Below are positions 10,021 to 25,528 of a DNA stretch of 64,000 nucleotides, piece after piece; position 1 is the first letter of the stretch; each line of letters starts with the position of its first letter. The notes beneath the pieces are model-generated. The model saw only the letters and a list, made by a program, of their open reading frames with translations, ran no database searches and had not been told where the DNA came from. This DNA is from Halorientalis sp. LT38. Lineage in GTDB: Archaea > Halobacteriota > Halobacteria > Halobacteriales > Haloarculaceae. Where the stretch lies: contig NZ_JAYEZN010000001.1 of assembly GCF_037031225.1 (NCBI RefSeq), forward strand, positions 2,976,001 through 3,040,000, written 5' to 3'. A program made the position numbers and the translations under genes.

Positions 10021-11202
10021 ATGAAACTCGCGATGATCGGTTTCGGCCAGGCGGGCGGGAAAATCGTCGACAAGTTCCTGGAGTACGACGAGCGAACCGG
10101 GAGCGGGATCGTCCGTTCCGCGGTCGCCGTCAACACCGCTAAAGCCGACTTACTTGGACTGGAGCGCGTACCGAAAGACAACCGGGTGCTAATCGGACAG
10201 GCCCGGGTGAAAGGACACGGCGTCGGCGCCGACAACGAACTCGGCGCCGAGATCGCGGAGGAAGACATCGACGAGATTCAGGGTGCGATCGACAACATCC
10301 CTGTCCACGAGGTCGACGCCTTCCTCATCGTCGCCGGACTCGGTGGCGGTACCGGGTCGGGCGGGTCGCCGGTCCTGGCCAAACATCTCAAACGTATCTA
10401 CACGGAACCCGTCTACGGGCTGGGCGTGCTGCCCGGCGGGGACGAGGGCGGTATCTACACCCTGAACGCCGCCCGATCCTTCCAGACGTTCGTGCGCGAG
10501 GTCGACAACCTCCTCGTGTTCGACAACGACGCCTGGCGGAAATCCGGCGAATCGGTCGAGGGCGGCTACGCCGAGATCAACGACGAGATCGTCAAGCGAT
10601 TCGGCATCCTCTTCGGCGCCGGCGAGGTCCAGCCCGGCCAGGAGGTCGGGGAGAGCGTCGTCGACTCCAGCGAGATCATCAACACGCTCGCGGGCGGCGG
10701 CGTGTCGACGGTCGGCTACGCCGCCGAGGAGGTCGAACCCGGGGAGGACTCCGGCGGCCTCCTCTCGCGGTTCAAGGGCGACGACGGCGACGACGGGATG
10801 GACACCGCCAACACCACGAACCGCATCACGAGTCTCGTCCGGAAGGCGGCGCTGGGCCGCCTGACCCTGCCCTGCGAGATCGACGGCGCCGAGCGGGCGC
10901 TGCTCGTGCTGAGCGGTCCGCCGAAACACCTCAACCGGAAAGGCATCGAGCGCGGGCGGAAGTGGCTCGAAGAGCAGACCGGGAGCATGGAGGTCCGCGG
11001 CGGCGACTACCCCGTCCCCGAGTCGGGCTACGTCGCGAGCGTCATCCTGCTATCGGGCGTCCACAACGTCCCGCGCATCAAGGAGCTCCAGCAGGTGGCC
11101 ATCGAGGCACAGGACAACATCGACGAGATCCGGCAGGAAAGCAAAGCGAATTTAGAGGAGTTAGTCGAGGACGATGATGATGAACTGGATCCGCTCTTCT
11201 AA
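10021..11202 (+). CDS. cetZ1: CetZ tubulin/FtsZ-superfamily GTPase (CetZ1-like)
   Basis: A 393-residue protein with the tubulin/FtsZ GTP-binding loop GGGTGSG at residues 108-114, N-terminal MIGFGQAGGKIVDKF, and later NTLAGGGVSTVGYA and the long helix ending in an acidic tail ([10 protein letters not shown]). Its length and the MKLAMIGFGQAGGK start match CetZ1, which controls cell shape and motility in Haloferax (known for the family). It polymerises with GTP at the cytoplasmic face. First gene of an overlapping operon with a membrane protein, cofC and cofG. Confidence 0.93.
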   Translation: MKLAMIGFGQAGGKIVDKFLEYDERTGSGIVRSAVAVNTAKADLLGLERVPKDNRVLIGQARVKGHGVGADNELGAEIAEEDIDEIQGAIDNIPVHEVDAFLIVAGLGGGTGSGGSPVLAKHLKRIYTEPVYGLGVLPGGDEGGIYTLNAARSFQTFVREVDNLLVFDNDAWRKSGESVEGGYAEINDEIVKRFGILFGAGEVQPGQEVGESVVDSSEIINTLAGGGVSTVGYAAEEVEPGEDSGGLLSRFKGDDGDDGMDTANTTNRITSLVRKAALGRLTLPCEIDGAERALLVLSGPPKHLNRKGIERGRKWLEEQTGSMEVRGGDYPVPESGYVASVILLSGVHNVPRIKELQQVAIEAQDNIDEIRQESKANLEELVEDDDDELDPLF

Positions 11203-18459: not shown

Positions 18460-19758
18460 TCAGACGGCGGCTTCGGACGCCTCGACGGCGACGTCGTCGG
18501 GCAGCTCGTCGCGGGCGCGCTCGTATTCCTCGGGATCGGGGGACCGGAACTCCGCGGCGACTCGGCGGGCGCGGTCGTAGTGCTCGCGGGCCTCGTCGTA
18601 GGCTGCATCCGCCGCGGCCGCGTTGCCGTCCTTCCGCGCGGACTCGGCGCGGTCGACGGCCTGCTCGGCGCGCTCGCCGTGAGCCGCGGCGAGTTTCTGA
18701 GCGGCCCACTCGACCTGGAACCGGAGCGCCTCGGGGTCGCCGTCGAACACGTTTCCGTGGCGGAGGACGAGCGCCAGCGTCTCGTGGCTCTCCTCGAGCG
18801 CCCGTCGCCAGGCGTCGACGGCCGCGTCCGGATCCGCCACCTCGACCGCGCGCTCGCAGGCCTCGGTCGCCGACCGCAGCGGCGCCCCGCCGACCTCGGT
18901 GATGGCCTTCTCGACGCCGGCCACCTCGGCGGCCATGTCGTCTGCCTCGTGGTACTCGACGTCCTTCGAGAGGTCCATCGCGCGCTCGTACAGGGAGAGC
19001 GACCGGTCGTAGGTCTCGTAGGCCTCGAGGTAGTCGCCGTCGGTCCGCGCGGCCTCGGCCCCGGCGGCGAGGTGGCGCGCCCTGGTCCAGTGCGTGCGGA
19101 TGCGCGCCAGGGAGAGCCGCGTCTCGAGCTGGGCGATCCGGCGATGCATCGCGTGCTCGCCCTCACGGAAGTCCGCCGCAACCTGCCGGGCCTCCTCCAG
19201 TAACTCCTCGCTGCGAGAGATGGCCGTCTCCGCCGTCGCCGGGTCGCCGTCCTCCAGGTTGGACTCGACGGTCGAGACGTGTTCCCGGGCCTTCTCCAGG
19301 CGCCGGTCGACAGTCACCCAGTAGGAGATGGCCTGCTCGACGTATTCGCCGACCGGATCGAGGTCCTCGCGGCCGCCTTGCCAGAAGGTGTAGCGGTCGC
19401 TGGTCCGTGCGGTCAGCGTCACCCGGCTCTTGAGCATCCCGGTCTTGGTCTCGACCGACCGGATCTCCGTGTACGGCAGCGAGACGCTCCGATTGCGGCC
19501 GCTGCCCTCGTGGTTGCCGCCGACGACGAGCAGGACGCGCTCGTCGGTCACGGCGGCGACCGCGCTGTACTCGGAGCCCGGCGTGACGGTCCGCTCGCCG
19601 TCGCCGTCCTCGTGCTTGATTCCCTTTTTCTCGTTCGTCAGGACGTACGCCGGCGCTTCGGTCCCCTCGAAGTAGTCCTCGAGTGCCGCGTCCTCGAGGT
19701 AGCCGGCCCCACCGCCGTCCCTCGACACCGTTCGTTCGGCGTTGCTGCTGCCCCCCAT
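18460..19758 (-). CDS. PH-like domain plus helical repeats protein, paralog A
   Basis: A 432-residue acidic, soluble protein. Residues ~25-150 form a PH-like beta domain (VLTNEKKGIKHED..., VTDERVLLVVGG, SLPYTEIRSVETKTGMLKS). Residues ~150-425 are helical hairpins rich in Ala/Glu/Arg with TPR-like spacing. It is paralogous to the protein at 22,068: the NEKKG, VTDxRVL-VVG, PYTEI-GML and YVE-A blocks align in order, and both genes begin after a GATCACC-ATG leader. It follows the DNA methyltransferase with a 44-bp gap. Function unknown; a methyltransferase-associated role is inference. Confidence 0.8.
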   Translation of the reverse strand: MGGSSNAERTVSRDGGGAGYLEDAALEDYFEGTEAPAYVLTNEKKGIKHEDGDGERTVTPGSEYSAVAAVTDERVLLVVGGNHEGSGRNRSVSLPYTEIRSVETKTGMLKSRVTLTARTSDRYTFWQGGREDLDPVGEYVEQAISYWVTVDRRLEKAREHVSTVESNLEDGDPATAETAISRSEELLEEARQVAADFREGEHAMHRRIAQLETRLSLARIRTHWTRARHLAAGAEAARTDGDYLEAYETYDRSLSLYERAMDLSKDVEYHEADDMAAEVAGVEKAITEVGGAPLRSATEACERAVEVADPDAAVDAWRRALEESHETLALVLRHGNVFDGDPEALRFQVEWAAQKLAAAHGERAEQAVDRAESARKDGNAAAADAAYDEAREHYDRARRVAAEFRSPDPEEYERARDELPDDVAVEASEAAV

Positions 19759-19802
19759 GGTGATCCCGTAACTACCTACTGTTGACGCTCCCCCCTAATC
19801 AA

Positions 19803-21998
19803 TCACTCGCCCGTTACCTCCGCCGAGCCGACAGGTGCGCGGTCGGTCAGCCACGCCTCGACGAGTCGATCGATCTCGGCCTCGATGGCCGACAGCGCCG
19901 GTGACTCGGGATCCGGGCCCCCGTCACCGTCCGCCCGCTGGGCGTCGGCCACGAGTTCGTGGGCCCGGATCGACAGGTCGGCCAGCCGATCGCTGTGCGG
20001 GCAGGCCGCCGGGTCCGGCAGTCGCAACTCGGAGACCACGGACTTCGTGAGGCTCGCCTTCCCGTTCGAGGAGAGGTCACGGAGCGTCCGCTGGTAGGGC
20101 GCGGAGTTGAGCAACGCACAGAGGAAGTGCGCCGTTCGGCGGTCGTCCGCGGCGACGAACATGTAGTGATCCCCTGGAATGGCCTGTCGCTCGCCAAGGT
20201 CGGGATCCGTCCGCGTCGACACGACGGTGAAGTCGGGCTTGAACCCCAGCCGACACCACGCGATCTTGTAGTCGGCCCAGGTGTAGGCTCCGAGTCCGAA
20301 CACGGAGTAGAAGGGGCCGTGATCCAGCCAGGACGACGAGCGGTCGGTCAGTTGCTCCCTGTGGTCCCGGAGGTAGGCGTAGGCGTCCGGATACTCCCGC
20401 TGCAGGCGCTCCTCGTTGTCCTCGCCCGCCTGCCGCTGGGGCACCAGCCGAAGGTCGTGGCCGGTCAGCCCCCACTTCCGCACGTGTCGCGACTTCAGGT
20501 ACGGGTAGACCAGGTCGTCCTCGATCCGGTCGAGGGCCTCGCGCTCCAGCCCGAAGACGGCGTTGGCGTCGTCTTTCAGCCCGTGTCTGATCTCGTGGTC
20601 GCAGGGGCCGAGCGCCGCCCGCTCCGCGTCGGCCCGGAGCCACGGCGTCGACGGATCGTCCGGCGCGAGCGGCACGAGTTCGGTCGCCGTCGCCGTCGCG
20701 CTCTCATGCAGGGCCGACAGCGACCCGAAGTCAGCCGAGTCCTCACCGGCGGTCCAGACCGTCGCGGGGACCGGGAAGGACGCCTGCGCGTCGGCCGCGA
20801 ACGCGTAGACGGCCGCGTTCGCGCCGACTTCGGGGAAGGGCGTCAGCGCCGAGAGGTCCTGCACGTCCCGCAGATCCAGTGCCCGATCACCCACGCGAAG
20901 CCGGCGCAGGACCGCGCCCGCGGGCCCCCGCATCAGGTCGCGTTTCAGGACGAACGCCGCCGCCCCACCCTCCCGGAGGTACCGGTGGACGCAGACCCAG
21001 GCGAAGGGTACCGAGACGTCGTCGTTGCTGTGGCCCAGGCGGGCCGTCACCCCGTCGTGGGGCTGCAGATCCAGTCGGTCGACGTACTCCGCTCGCCAGC
21101 GGTCCTTGAGCCGCTCGGAGAGTCGCTCCCAGGGAACCCACGGCGGATTTCCGACGAGGGCATCGAACGACGCATCGAGCGAGGCACCGCGAACCCGGAT
21201 CTCGTCGTCGCGTGTCAGCGCGAGCGCGTCGGTCAGGAACACGGGGAGGGCGACCGACTCGCGGTCCGCGGCCTCGAGTTCGTCGAACAGGGCCACCGCG
21301 TAGGAGAGCGTCGCGCTCTTGACGGCGACGGGGTTCACGTCGATGCCCACGACGGAATCGGTCGCGGCGTCGAGGAACGATTCGGAGTCGCCCGTCCAGC
21401 CCTCGCGTTTCCGCTCCAGCGCGGCCGTCAGGAAGACGCCGGAGCCACAGCCCGGATCGAGGACCGTCGCGTCCGCGACCGTCTCGGGGAGCGACTCCAG
21501 CGCCAGGTCGGCGACGGCGCGCGGGGTGTAGAATTCGCCCAGCGCGAGGCGGACCGCGTGCGGGACCACCTCGGCGTAGAGATCCCGGAGGCGGTCGGGT
21601 GTGAGCCGCCCAAGGTCGCGCTCCCGGACCGATTCGAGCACCTGCTCGCGCCCGCGGTCCGGCGGCAGGATTTCGTCGTGCAAATCGCCGAACGCGCCGC
21701 CCGTCGCGCCCGTGTTCGTGCCCGGTTCCCGATTCGCGATCGCCGTCCCCGTACTGCCTTCGACGGCATCGAGCAGGCAGTCCAGCAGGTAGTCGACGTA
21801 CAGCGTCTCGACGAACGCCGCATCGACGGGGTCGTCGACTGCCATCTCGGCGAACACGTCGCCGTGGCTGGTCCGGACGAACGACGCCCAGCGGTCCCTC
21901 GCGGTGGCGACGGCGCCGCCCTCGGACAGTCGGTCCCGGGCGCTACTGACGTAGGTCCTTCTGTGCTCGTCGACGTCGACGTCCCGGAACGGGCCCAT
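19803..21998 (-). CDS. N6-adenine DNA methyltransferase with target-recognition region
   Basis: A 731-residue class I methyltransferase. LGEFYTPR (153-160) introduces the SAM fold, DPGCGSGVFL (181-190) is motif I, and GNPPWVPW (283-290) carries the NPPW catalytic motif of gamma-type m6A enzymes. The C-terminal half (about 450-700), with LKSRHVRKWG and LNSAPYQRTLR, resembles the target-recognition part of Eco57I/PglX-like enzymes. No PD-ExK nuclease or helicase motif is visible, so it is probably methylation only. It lies between two paralogous PH-like proteins, all on one strand with gaps of 44 and 69 bp. The recognition site is unknown. Confidence 0.88.
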   Translation of the reverse strand: MGPFRDVDVDEHRRTYVSSARDRLSEGGAVATARDRWASFVRTSHGDVFAEMAVDDPVDAAFVETLYVDYLLDCLLDAVEGSTGTAIANREPGTNTGATGGAFGDLHDEILPPDRGREQVLESVRERDLGRLTPDRLRDLYAEVVPHAVRLALGEFYTPRAVADLALESLPETVADATVLDPGCGSGVFLTAALERKREGWTGDSESFLDAATDSVVGIDVNPVAVKSATLSYAVALFDELEAADRESVALPVFLTDALALTRDDEIRVRGASLDASFDALVGNPPWVPWERLSERLKDRWRAEYVDRLDLQPHDGVTARLGHSNDDVSVPFAWVCVHRYLREGGAAAFVLKRDLMRGPAGAVLRRLRVGDRALDLRDVQDLSALTPFPEVGANAAVYAFAADAQASFPVPATVWTAGEDSADFGSLSALHESATATATELVPLAPDDPSTPWLRADAERAALGPCDHEIRHGLKDDANAVFGLEREALDRIEDDLVYPYLKSRHVRKWGLTGHDLRLVPQRQAGEDNEERLQREYPDAYAYLRDHREQLTDRSSSWLDHGPFYSVFGLGAYTWADYKIAWCRLGFKPDFTVVSTRTDPDLGERQAIPGDHYMFVAADDRRTAHFLCALLNSAPYQRTLRDLSSNGKASLTKSVVSELRLPDPAACPHSDRLADLSIRAHELVADAQRADGDGGPDPESPALSAIEAEIDRLVEAWLTDRAPVGSAEVTGE

Positions 21999-22067
21999 TC
22001 GGTCGCGAGTTCGGCGGGACCTGACAAATAACCCTCGTCCGCAGTGTGCGGCCGGACGACCGGCGGC

Positions 22068-23456
22068 TCAGTCGTTCGAGAGCCCGCGCGTCCGCCGGTC
22101 CCCGTCCGACATGTCGCCGACGAACTCGAACCCGTCGGCGGCCGCGGACTCGGCGGCCTCGATCCGGTCTCCGAGCGCGTCGCGCGCCGCCTCCAGTTCC
22201 GGGGTCAGTCCGGGCTTCAGTTCGCTCGCGACGGCGAGGGCCGCCTCGATCTCGGCCCGGGCGTCCTCGTAGGCGGCGATCGCCGCGTCCGGCCGGTTCG
22301 TCGCGAGGCAGTGATCGCCCGCGACGCGGTGGCGGTCGGCGAGCGACCGACGGGTCGTGACTACCTGTCCCGCGATGGTCTCGACGCGCTCGCGCAGTTC
22401 GTCGCTGTCGCCGGCGAACCGACTGTCGTCGCTGCCCCAGTCCAGGACCAGTGCGGTCTGGTAGCGTTCGAGCGCGCGTTCGAGCCGTTCGGCGGTGACT
22501 TTCGGATCGTCGACCTCGCGAGCCCGCTCGTAGGCCGTCTCGGCGCGTCCGAGCGGCGACTTCGAGAGGCGATCGAGCGTCCGCGTCACCGCGTCGGCGC
22601 TCTCGCGGATCTCCGTCTGTTCCGGGAAGTCGTGCTCGCGCGCGACGTCGAGTGCGCGCTCGTACTGGCTGCGCGCCTGCAGGTAGGTCTCGTAGGCGTC
22701 GTCGTAGCGCTCCTGGCGCCAGTGGTCGCTGGCGGTCGTCTCGTGGGCCTCGGCCCGTGAGACGTGAACGTCCATCACCGCCGCGTCGAGGCGGCGCTCG
22801 GCCCGGTGGATTCGCTCCCAGACCGCGTCGGTGCGGTCGGTGGTCAGTTCCGGGGCCTTTCGCTGTGCGACTTCGAGGTGATCCCGTGCCGTGCCGGCCG
22901 CATCGCGCGCGGCCTCGTGGTCACGCTCCTCCAGATGGCTCGCCACGTCGGCGAGGTGTCGGTTGGCGTGGCTGAGCTGGCTCTCGACCCGCGACCAGAC
23001 GACGGCGGCCCGTTCGACGTACTCGGCCGCCGGCTCGACGTCGACCGAGCGGCGGAGCGCGAAGCGCCACCTGACGCCCTCGGTCGTCCAGACGTCCAGT
23101 CCGTTCCGCAGCATTCCGCCGCGGGTCTTGACGTCCTCGATCTCCGTGTAGGGGACGGCCACGGACTTGTCGCCGTCCGCGCCGCCGTCCCCGACGACGA
23201 ACAGGACGCGCGTGTCGGTCACCGCGAGGATGGCCCGGTAGCCGTCGCCCGGCGTGTACGCCGTCGCGCCGTCGTCGGCCTCCCGGCGAACGCCCTTTTT
23301 CTCGTTCGATAATAGAAACGCCACGCGTTCGGACTCGCCCAGGTACTCGATGAGGGGCCGGTCGCGGAGGTAGCCACTCGCGAAGACGCCGCCGCTACCG
23401 GTCCCAGTGAGCAACTCCTCGTCGTCGATCGCGTTCTCGTCCTGGGAAGCCAACAT
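22068..23456 (-). CDS. PH-like domain plus helical repeats protein, paralog B
   Basis: A 462-residue acidic, soluble protein and the first gene of the methyltransferase cassette. The PH-like part (about 40-165) shows LLSNEKKGVRREA, VTDTRVLFVVGDG and PYTEIEDVKTRGGML, block by block like paralog A. Helical repeats fill ~165-440 (ESQLSHANRHLADVASHLEE..., YLQARSQYERALDVA). The frame opens at a GTG (23471); ATG 23456 is chosen because both paralogs have GTAGGT...GATCACC directly before ATG. Neither copy has a transmembrane segment or enzyme motif. Confidence 0.8.
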   Translation of the reverse strand: MLASQDENAIDDEELLTGTGSGGVFASGYLRDRPLIEYLGESERVAFLLSNEKKGVRREADDGATAYTPGDGYRAILAVTDTRVLFVVGDGGADGDKSVAVPYTEIEDVKTRGGMLRNGLDVWTTEGVRWRFALRRSVDVEPAAEYVERAAVVWSRVESQLSHANRHLADVASHLEERDHEAARDAAGTARDHLEVAQRKAPELTTDRTDAVWERIHRAERRLDAAVMDVHVSRAEAHETTASDHWRQERYDDAYETYLQARSQYERALDVAREHDFPEQTEIRESADAVTRTLDRLSKSPLGRAETAYERAREVDDPKVTAERLERALERYQTALVLDWGSDDSRFAGDSDELRERVETIAGQVVTTRRSLADRHRVAGDHCLATNRPDAAIAAYEDARAEIEAALAVASELKPGLTPELEAARDALGDRIEAAESAAADGFEFVGDMSDGDRRTRGLSND

Positions 23457-23649
23457 GGTGATCTCGCACACCTACAATGAATCTGATTGATAATGAGTCA
23501 TACGCTCGCTCCAGCCCGCGTCCGACGATGAATTTATCAGATGGTTCGAAAAATAAATTCTCACAGTACGCGAACGGAGCCGAAGTGTGCCACAGCGCCG
23601 ACGTCTGTCTGACTGGGGTTTAGGTACTGTCGTCTCCCTGGTAGGTGGT

Positions 23650-23847
23650 ATGCCACGGTTGATGCTGGACCTGCCCGACGAACTCAGACGGCCGGGCCCT
23701 GGTCCCGAGAGCGCCGAAAACCAGACGGAAGACGGTCGGGCGCAGACGCGCGATCCGACCGAGACGGTGACTGCGAGCGGGCAGCCGGTCGGCGGCCCGC
23801 GCGTGGTCCGCTGGCACCGCTGCTGGGCCGGGACCGACGGTCAGTAA
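23650..23847 (+). CDS. Possible small protein of 65 residues
   Basis: Within the 384-bp gap between paralog B and the actin-like gene, the ATG at 23650 opens MPRLMLDLPDELRRPGPG..., a polar, proline- and arginine-containing protein without motifs. TTTAGG about 29 bp upstream could be a TATA element for a leaderless transcript. The opposite strand is also open here, so it may be non-coding. The rest of the gap holds A/T-rich promoter sequence for paralog B (TTATCA and AAATAAATTC around 23,490-23,560). Confidence 0.3.
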   Translation: MPRLMLDLPDELRRPGPGPESAENQTEDGRAQTRDPTETVTASGQPVGGPRVVRWHRCWAGTDGQ

Positions 23848-24899
23848 CTGTCGCTCTCGATGAGGTGGGCCGCGATGCGCTGTGCGCCGACGGTCGCCGA
23901 GAGGTCGGGCCGGTCGGCCGAGACGGCTGTCACGTCACGGTTGAGTTCGTCGCTCAGGCGTTCCTCGAACTCCCCGACGATACCTGGGACGCAGGCCATC
24001 CCGCCCGTCAGGACGACCGGCTGGTCCAGCGCGAGCTTGTACACCTTCATGTGGTCGTTGGCCAGTTCCGGCAGGAAGGTGTTCGCGATCTCGTCGACGG
24101 CCTCGTCGAGGTAGTCGTTGCAGGCGTCCATGACGCTGCGCTCGATGGTGAACTCGTGGGCGCCGCCGCCGGGCTGTTGAATCACGTCGGTGAACGGCTC
24201 GAAGTCGACGAAGTCGGCGTGTTCTTCCTTGTACTCCCGGGCGGTCGTCTTGTCGATGTTGACCCGGCCCTGGGTCTCCTCTTCGACGTTGTTCTCGATC
24301 ATCCGGTCGACCTCGTTGCCCGTCACGGCGCCGGTCGCGAAGGGGGCGAGCTGCTCGCCGCGGCGGTAGGCCGAGGCCTCCAGGTTCGTCGAACCCATGT
24401 TGACCGAACAGAAGATCTCCTCGATGGCCTGCAGATCTTCGCCCAGCGCGGGAATCGACCCGCAGAGCGATTCGGGGTAGCTCTGGACGAGTTCGCCCCC
24501 GATGGCGCTCTCCTCGATGACGGATTCGAGGTTCGCCAGTCCCTTCTCGTTGTCGATGGTCGGGATGGCGTAGACGACGACGCTGTCCTCGGGGACCTCG
24601 TGTTCGGCGATCAGCGCGTCGAAGAACTTCTTGGTCAGTTCCGCGCGGTCGTCGTCCTCCGGGAGCCCCGAGCGGAGCATGAACTCAGCGCGGTCGGGGT
24701 ACTCGGTCGCGGCCTCGTCGCCGTAGAGGACGCGCTCCTCGCCAGTGATCGGGTCGTCGTAGGTCGCCAGACAGGTGAGCGTCCGGATCGTCTCCAGCCC
24801 GCCATCGCCGTCCGGGAGGGCGATCACCGTTCGCGTGCTGCCCAGCTTGACCCCGACCGGAACCGGTCCGTCCGACGTCGCCGTCTCGTCATCGCTCAT
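23841..24899 (-). CDS. Actin-fold protein, haloarchaeal cytoskeletal type (volactin/salactin-like)
   Basis: A 352-residue actin/Hsp70-fold protein. Phosphate-1 loop VGVKLGSTRT (residues 15-24), phosphate-2 loop CSVNMGSTN in the middle, adenosine motif VVLTGGMACVPGI near the C terminus. The positions usually held by Asp in the two phosphate loops are Lys and Asn, so nucleotide hydrolysis may be altered. Haloarchaeal actin homologs (volactin of Haloferax, salactin of Halobacterium) are of this kind; I cannot tell which group. It is just downstream of an ArlD/E-domain gene on the same strand (101-bp gap). Confidence 0.8.
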   Translation of the reverse strand: MSDDETATSDGPVPVGVKLGSTRTVIALPDGDGGLETIRTLTCLATYDDPITGEERVLYGDEAATEYPDRAEFMLRSGLPEDDDRAELTKKFFDALIAEHEVPEDSVVVYAIPTIDNEKGLANLESVIEESAIGGELVQSYPESLCGSIPALGEDLQAIEEIFCSVNMGSTNLEASAYRRGEQLAPFATGAVTGNEVDRMIENNVEEETQGRVNIDKTTAREYKEEHADFVDFEPFTDVIQQPGGGAHEFTIERSVMDACNDYLDEAVDEIANTFLPELANDHMKVYKLALDQPVVLTGGMACVPGIVGEFEERLSDELNRDVTAVSADRPDLSATVGAQRIAAHLIESDSY

Positions 24900-25000: not shown

Positions 25001-25528
25001 TCACTGCATCGAGACGAGGCGCGCGACGTAGACGAGACTGAGTCGGTGGTCGTCGGCGGTGCCGCCGCGAGGTTCCTCGGCGGGACTCTCGAGGCCGAGC
25101 AGGTAGTCGTTGAGGTCGGCGGCGACGTTTTCGGTGAGCCAGCCGACCGACTCGTAGAACTGGATCGCCTCGCTCGTGCCCTGGTAGCCGAAGTTCGTCA
25201 GCAGGAACTCGAGCCACTCGAAGACGACGTACTCCGCGCCGTAGCTCTCGGGGAGCGCGTCGAGGTACGGCTTCGTCAGATCGTCGGCGCCCGCCTCCAG
25301 CGGGAGCAGTTCGCGGTAGAGGCCGTCCTGAAACCGGTCTCTGGCGTCGGTCTCCGGTTCGAGACTGCCCCAGCCGTTGCCTTCCGGCCGGGCGCCGTCG
25401 TCGCCGTCGCTCGTCGGTGGGGTTCGTGCGTCGCCGCCGTCACCGCCGGACTGGCGCGGGCCGTCACCGCGTTCCCGCGCCATCTTCCGGAGTTCGTCGA
25501 GGTCGTAATCGCGTGGATTGATCGTCAT
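25001..25528 (-). CDS. ArlD/E (FlaD/E) domain protein, stand-alone
   Basis: A 175-residue protein with a disordered, Gly/Asp-rich N-terminal half and a C-terminal Arch_fla_DE domain from about residue 85 (KPYLDALPESYGAEYVVFEW, then LLTNFGYQGTSEAI and YYESVGWL-type repeats, here FYESVGWLTENV). The domain is the one that links the archaellum motor to chemotaxis proteins in Euryarchaeota. Here it is not in an arl operon but directly upstream of the actin-like gene. It could be a scaffold for polar assemblies; that role is inference. Confidence 0.82.
   Translation of the reverse strand: MTINPRDYDLDELRKMARERGDGPRQSGGDGGDARTPPTSDGDDGARPEGNGWGSLEPETDARDRFQDGLYRELLPLEAGADDLTKPYLDALPESYGAEYVVFEWLEFLLTNFGYQGTSEAIQFYESVGWLTENVAADLNDYLLGLESPAEEPRGGTADDHRLSLVYVARLVSMQ

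Follow-up and report, generated by a model that had tools for sequence, protein, structure and literature searches.

The locus lies within a window of 64,000 nucleotides (the whole stretch of DNA that was analysed) from Halorientalis sp. LT38. It comprises three genes on the reverse strand, transcribed in the order A, methyltransferase, B, with gaps of 69 bp between A and the methyltransferase and 44 bp between the methyltransferase and B. An earlier note on this DNA had described these three codirectional genes with the correct coordinates, strand and gaps; a salactin gene and a gene of the FlaD/E family, just upstream of A and on the same strand, were missed in that reading. The features of the region are as follows.

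18460-19758, reverse strand: B, 432 aa, a paralogue of A
19803-21998, reverse strand: the methyltransferase, 731 aa, between A and B
22068-23456, reverse strand: A, an open reading frame with an ATG start; an in-frame GTG is also present at 23471
23457-23649, no strand: intergenic region between divergent genes; upstream of A it contains conserved blocks and a TATA-like stretch
23650-23847, forward strand: short open reading frame of 65 codons, MPRLMLDLPDEL...VVRWHRCWAGTDGQ, convergent (tail-to-tail) with salactin and transcribed away from A
23841-24899, reverse strand: salactin, upstream of A (PF25229, 3.7e-186; NCBIfam salactin, 7.5e-181)
25001-25528, reverse strand: gene of the FlaD/E family (archaellum accessory), next to salactin on its upstream side (PF04659, 9.5e-25)

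The intergenic region 23457-23649 was compared by alignment of four Halorientalis genomes, and its blocks suggest, at the level of the sequence, that there may be a separate promoter for A, the methyltransferase and B. Purifying selection acts on A, the methyltransferase and B alike (dN/dS 0.16-0.57). Downstream of B in strain LT38 is cofH, which is placed outside the unit because B is followed by other genes in other Halorientalis genomes. Elsewhere in the window, at 10021-11202 on the forward strand, there is what appears by eye to be a CetZ/tubulin-like gene, near cofC- and cofG-like genes.

The two proteins that flank the methyltransferase had been proposed to be paralogues made of PH-like blocks and helical repeats, which is borne out here. 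A and B align at about 35-36% over about 415 residues, and both match bPH_3 (PF14470) above the Pfam gathering score of 23, A at 8.7e-7 (29.8 bits) and B at 3.1e-6 (28 bits). In A, the PH domain occupies about residues 45-155 of 462 and is followed by TPR-like helical hairpins (141-441); B is likewise composed of a PH domain and helical repeats. The structure prediction that had been called for gives, for A, an AlphaFold2 model with a mean pLDDT of 89.8, in which the PH domain is followed by nine long helices forming hairpins. Over about 100 residues, the PH part superposes on solved PH domains with an rmsd of 2.5-3 angstrom; MTMR2, BBS5, USP37 and TFIIH p62 are among the matches. The predicted helices of the repeat part are 21-37 residues long and all TPR models fall below the Pfam cut-off. 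The fold of this part resembles TPR and NASP-like folds with poor global superposition, and these matches were not used for function because the rmsd is large.

A phylogenetic tree splits the family into four groups: Halorientalis A, Halorientalis B, genes linked to salactin, and unlinked paralogues. Halorientalis A groups with the salactin-linked genes, apart from B and the unlinked paralogues, although support for a single origin of the salactin-linked genes is modest (76/63). A and B are separate deep clades, which does not support B as a recent tandem copy of A. Clear orthologues of B were found only in Halorientalis, in a search of the genus, where they always adjoin the methyltransferase; one B-like row in the tree (L101) is a very long branch. 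B is most likely another scaffold of the A type. In L083, L088 and L094, an unlinked paralogue of the family neighbours an archaeal operon that includes genes judged by eye to be rRNA dimethyltransferase-like and HemK-like.

Most homologues of A carry an Mrr_cat-like domain (PF04471), as seen in Mrr-type proteins, at the end of the longer forms. This domain was not found in A of the window by Pfam search, and has been lost there. Within Halorientalis, it is present in A of H. salina (6.1e-11) and probably also in A of H. marina, judged by length only, and is absent from the remaining copies. An active nuclease of the Mrr type would carry Mrr_cat with D...(E/Q)xK. A of the window differs in having no such domain at all, and in the aligned homologues that do bear it, read by eye, the catalytic lysine of (E/Q)xK is missing, for which reason nuclease activity in these homologues is unlikely. 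It could be supposed that the locus is the remnant of a restriction-modification system, in which an ancestral A restricted DNA with an Mrr-like nuclease, the methyltransferase gave protection, and A of the window has since lost its nuclease. The retention of Mrr_cat in one, and by length perhaps two, Halorientalis copies of A and its loss from the others would be in keeping with this, but the absent lysine and the many Mrr_cat-bearing homologues that adjoin salactin in genomes without the methyltransferase make such a history highly improbable.

The methyltransferase itself is of the gamma-type N6-adenine class, with motif I DPGCGSG, motif IV NPPW, an FYTP region and the core fold. DPGCGSG and GNPPW are present and vary little or not at all across 20 relatives; the earlier note had named DPGCGSG and NPPW. 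PF02384 (N6_Mtase) is matched above its cut-off at 5.9e-9, and the PADLOC model REase_MTase_IIG at 4.2e-86, the match lying outside the nuclease part of that model; the protein indeed has no nuclease or helicase domain, as had been noticed at first. A helical N-terminal region precedes the methyltransferase core, which is followed by a target-recognition region at the C-terminus that is poorly modelled, with low pLDDT (mean for the whole model, 72). The closest folds found by Foldseek are CamA of Clostridioides difficile (5e-16) and M.BseCI (1.7e-14), although the methyltransferase is a longer protein and only about 15% identical to these. CamA is also a solitary enzyme.

That the immediate neighbourhood fits neither restriction-modification, BREX nor DISARM had been stated from the sequence and is upheld by model searches. 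The methyltransferase is weakly similar to mad2 of MADS and to PglX of BREX, but the scores are far below the curated cut-offs (MAD2, 40 bits against 720; PglX, 32.5 bits against 400). A and B match no mad gene. A Pfam scan of the neighbours revealed neither PglZ nor BrxC, and no DISARM gene either, nor does PADLOC match A or B to DISARM. Indeed, PADLOC gives no strong match for A or B at all. A close comparison is with type II restriction-modification loci found in Halorussus halobius and in two MAGs of the Halobacteriales, which have a homologous methyltransferase (46-49% identity) and a convergent gene of 220-242 aa that matches a PADLOC type II restriction endonuclease model. In strain LT38, by contrast, no restriction endonuclease adjoins or is fused to the methyltransferase, although an unrelated nuclease may lie elsewhere in the genome, and the endonuclease of the related loci is absent from all eight Halorientalis genomes; the same query does find the gene beside the methyltransferase in genomes G161 and G243.

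The relatives of the methyltransferase include three labelled clades: one beside PH genes, which is supported at 100/100 and confined to Halorientalis, one with the convergent type II restriction endonuclease, and one beside an SF2 helicase, which is made up of Halobellus and Halogeometricum. The remaining relatives have no constant partner beyond the local synteny of close relatives. A partner conserved across the haloarchaea was not identified, the helicase and the endonuclease each being limited to one clade. Genes of the A/B family were not found near bacterial relatives of the methyltransferase. One distant viral contig carries a relative (26%), and no plasmid match covers 80% of the query. 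Orphan methyltransferases are widely distributed in haloarchaea (PMC6471742), although the enzyme of the window was not matched to any of the orphan groups named there. The simplest account of these sequence data is that the methyltransferase would be a solitary modification enzyme. In Halobellus and Halogeometricum (L175, L176, L177, L179, L180, L183), the relatives follow an SF2 helicase gene of 660-777 aa with gaps of -3 to 131 bp, and it is possible that these pairs form a system.

Among 293 genomes of the order, a sample and not an exhaustive set, the methyltransferase is present in 37 (a few copies being split or truncated) and the A family in 41; for two loci (L062 and L152) the presence of the methyltransferase was taken from tblastn coordinates, the gene caller having skipped it in both. 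The two are found together in six genomes, five of which are Halorientalis, while in the sixth they are unlinked; outside Halorientalis, this is the only one of 36 sampled genomes with the A family to have the methyltransferase. Conversely, A, B and salactin are absent from all of the 26 named haloarchaeal methyltransferase loci outside Halorientalis, over the stretch examined. In Halorientalis, A and the methyltransferase are neighbours in 8/8 genomes, with a P450-like gene (named by eye) inserted between them in H. salina, and A, the methyltransferase and B are together in 7/8, B being absent from Halorientalis litorea (G162). Of the two outcomes that the note had named as refuting its idea, the first, PH proteins mostly without the methyltransferase, is thus what is observed, only 6/41 genomes with the A family having the enzyme; the second is not, the triplet being conserved in nearly the whole of one genus. 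The genes flanking the triplet on both sides are also syntenic within Halorientalis, and the conservation of the triplet in the genus is therefore weak evidence for coupling.

These distributions bear on the earlier proposal of a single defence or epigenetic-marking system with A and B as sensors, which is not supported, as the conserved neighbour of A is salactin and the methyltransferase is found elsewhere without A or B. The single defence cassette was rejected as the leading reading because A and the methyltransferase are distributed separately, and a defence or marking role for the three has no support outside one genus. A version specific to Halorientalis, in which the methyltransferase marks self DNA and A and B sense or act upon unmodified DNA, would have in its favour the constancy of the arrangement there with its short gaps, the Mrr_cat-like domain in most homologues of A, and the occurrence of A-type PH relatives as part of a plasmid helicase. 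Set against these are the PH proteins and methyltransferases that mostly occur without one another, the lack both of strong PADLOC matches and of a nuclease domain in A and B of the window, synteny that reaches past the triplet, and the presence in H. litorea of A and the methyltransferase without B, so that this version is considered unlikely. The helicase in question is a 1600-aa DEAD/DEAH protein on plasmids of Halapricum desulfuricans, H. litorea and Halomontanus rarus (L202, L203, L204), near an ADP-ribosylglycohydrolase gene and, in two of the three, HEAT-repeat and VWA genes. It is possible that these plasmid loci are defence cassettes.

Of 52 Haloarculaceae genomes that carry salactin, 27 have a gene of the A family next to it, downstream and in the same orientation, at 119-507 bp; the counts are from tblastn coordinates, and that of 27 is inflated by species relatedness. 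These 27 genomes are from six genera and most lack the methyltransferase. In strain LT38, the gap is 373 bp by tblastn coordinates. Salactin is beside A in all of the Halorientalis genomes checked except H. litorea, where salactin has relocated and A and the methyltransferase are still together. The actin of the window is the same as that of Halobacterium salinarum by family, with an equivalog score of 600.6 against the NCBIfam cut-off of 400. In Halobacterium, however, the synteny of salactin is poor even within the genus, its neighbourhood gave no function, and no partner was named by the authors who described it (PMC10746226), whereas the neighbourhood in the Haloarculaceae is conserved and consists of the PH/repeat protein, the small open reading frame and often the FlaD/E gene. 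In the fetched loci, where genes were called approximately, 25/50 salactin genes have the FlaD/E gene immediately upstream. Homologues of the short open reading frame are at the same place in 10/11 salactin-A loci, and in three loci without an adjacent A; across several genera these have the conserved ends MPR...RWLxCWxG and lie on the strand opposite to salactin and A.

The genes that flank the salactin-A pair differ by genus, being ParA and CheW genes on the opposite strand in several and other genes in Halorientalis. The persistence of the pair over six genera despite these changing flanks argues against A, the methyltransferase, B and salactin all being unrelated bystanders in a stable region of the genome, an explanation that would agree with the general synteny of the region within Halorientalis and that is nonetheless quite unlikely. 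On the other hand, 14 of the 41 genomes that have both A and salactin do not have them adjacent, and many genomes carry salactin without A, which counts against a tie between them.

It might also be that the whole set from the FlaD/E gene through salactin and A to B is one unit, with the methyltransferase marking sites that A and B tie to salactin for partitioning. The common strand and order across the genus, and salactin beside A in all of its genomes that were checked but H. litorea, would be consistent with this, as would the disturbed DNA partitioning that follows loss of salactin at low ploidy in Halobacterium salinarum (PMC10746226). Nearly all of the other genomes with salactin beside A lack the methyltransferase, however, A is probably under its own promoter, and in H. 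litorea salactin is elsewhere, which leaves this improbable. More doubtful again is that the methyltransferase was recruited in Halorientalis to a salactin module in which the actin, the PH/repeat adaptors and the DNA mark jointly partition or attach DNA.

The explanation that is favoured, and that is somewhat more likely than not, is that two unrelated functions lie side by side at this locus, A being a salactin accessory protein and the methyltransferase a solitary enzyme that has lodged by A and B. For A, this draws upon its fold, its family and the conserved linkage of its gene to salactin. The PH domain of A would bind membrane or a protein at the cell pole, and a partner would be held by the TPR-like superhelix. 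In this way, A would interact physically with salactin and anchor or nucleate its filaments, or tie them to cargo; the FlaD/E-family protein and the product of the small open reading frame would act together with A on salactin. The methyltransferase has the fold and motifs of its class and falls in a single Halorientalis clade, and no cognate nuclease was detected for it within Halorientalis; the enzyme would methylate DNA without restriction, having been fixed between A and B once, in the ancestor of Halorientalis, and inherited vertically since. Against this explanation, A adjoins the methyltransferase in every Halorientalis genome and the gaps are short, so that the genes may be co-transcribed or coupled within the genus, and in H. 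litorea it is salactin that has moved away from A.

In Halobacterium salinarum, filaments of salactin grow out of the cell poles (PMC10746226), and there are two candidates for what they might carry. The linkage to FlaD/E, ParA and CheW genes and to the archaellum operon of Halovenus points to the polar motility or chemosensory machinery as a putative cargo. The published deletion phenotypes, in which partitioning is affected and motility is normal, point to DNA, and a motility role for salactin is not favoured because its deletion in Halobacterium salinarum produced no motility defect (PMC10746226).

Salactin is among the very few dynamically unstable actins, and A is a concrete candidate for its partner. 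The greater value lies in the putative salactin partners, a set open to testing; the methyltransferase is less important, as one more solitary haloarchaeal enzyme of its kind. The presence of a PH/repeat protein, a small open reading frame and a FlaD/E gene makes the Haloarculaceae neighbourhood informative, and allows two questions to be put to the test, namely by what salactin is held at the pole and what it moves.

Further context for salactin is present in other genera. In the genus labelled g4 (L103, L104, L121), a different protein of 200 aa is encoded directly downstream of salactin; it has no Pfam match, is PH-like by eye, and has two hydrophobic stretches. In several genera of the Haloarculaceae (L084, L085, L086, L089, L092, L102, L105, L114-L116), the FlaD/E-salactin module is divergent from genes for a ParA-type ATPase and a CheW-domain protein. 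In Halovenus carboxidivorans (G177, L112:1-14501), an archaellum-type operon includes two genes for salactin, with a FlaC/FlaD-E fusion gene next to each, and the arrangement in L111 (G265) is similar. The operon contains FlaI-/FlaJ-type secretion genes, two archaellin-domain genes, CheD/CheC, and FlaH-like KaiC ATPases, of which there are two copies in L112.
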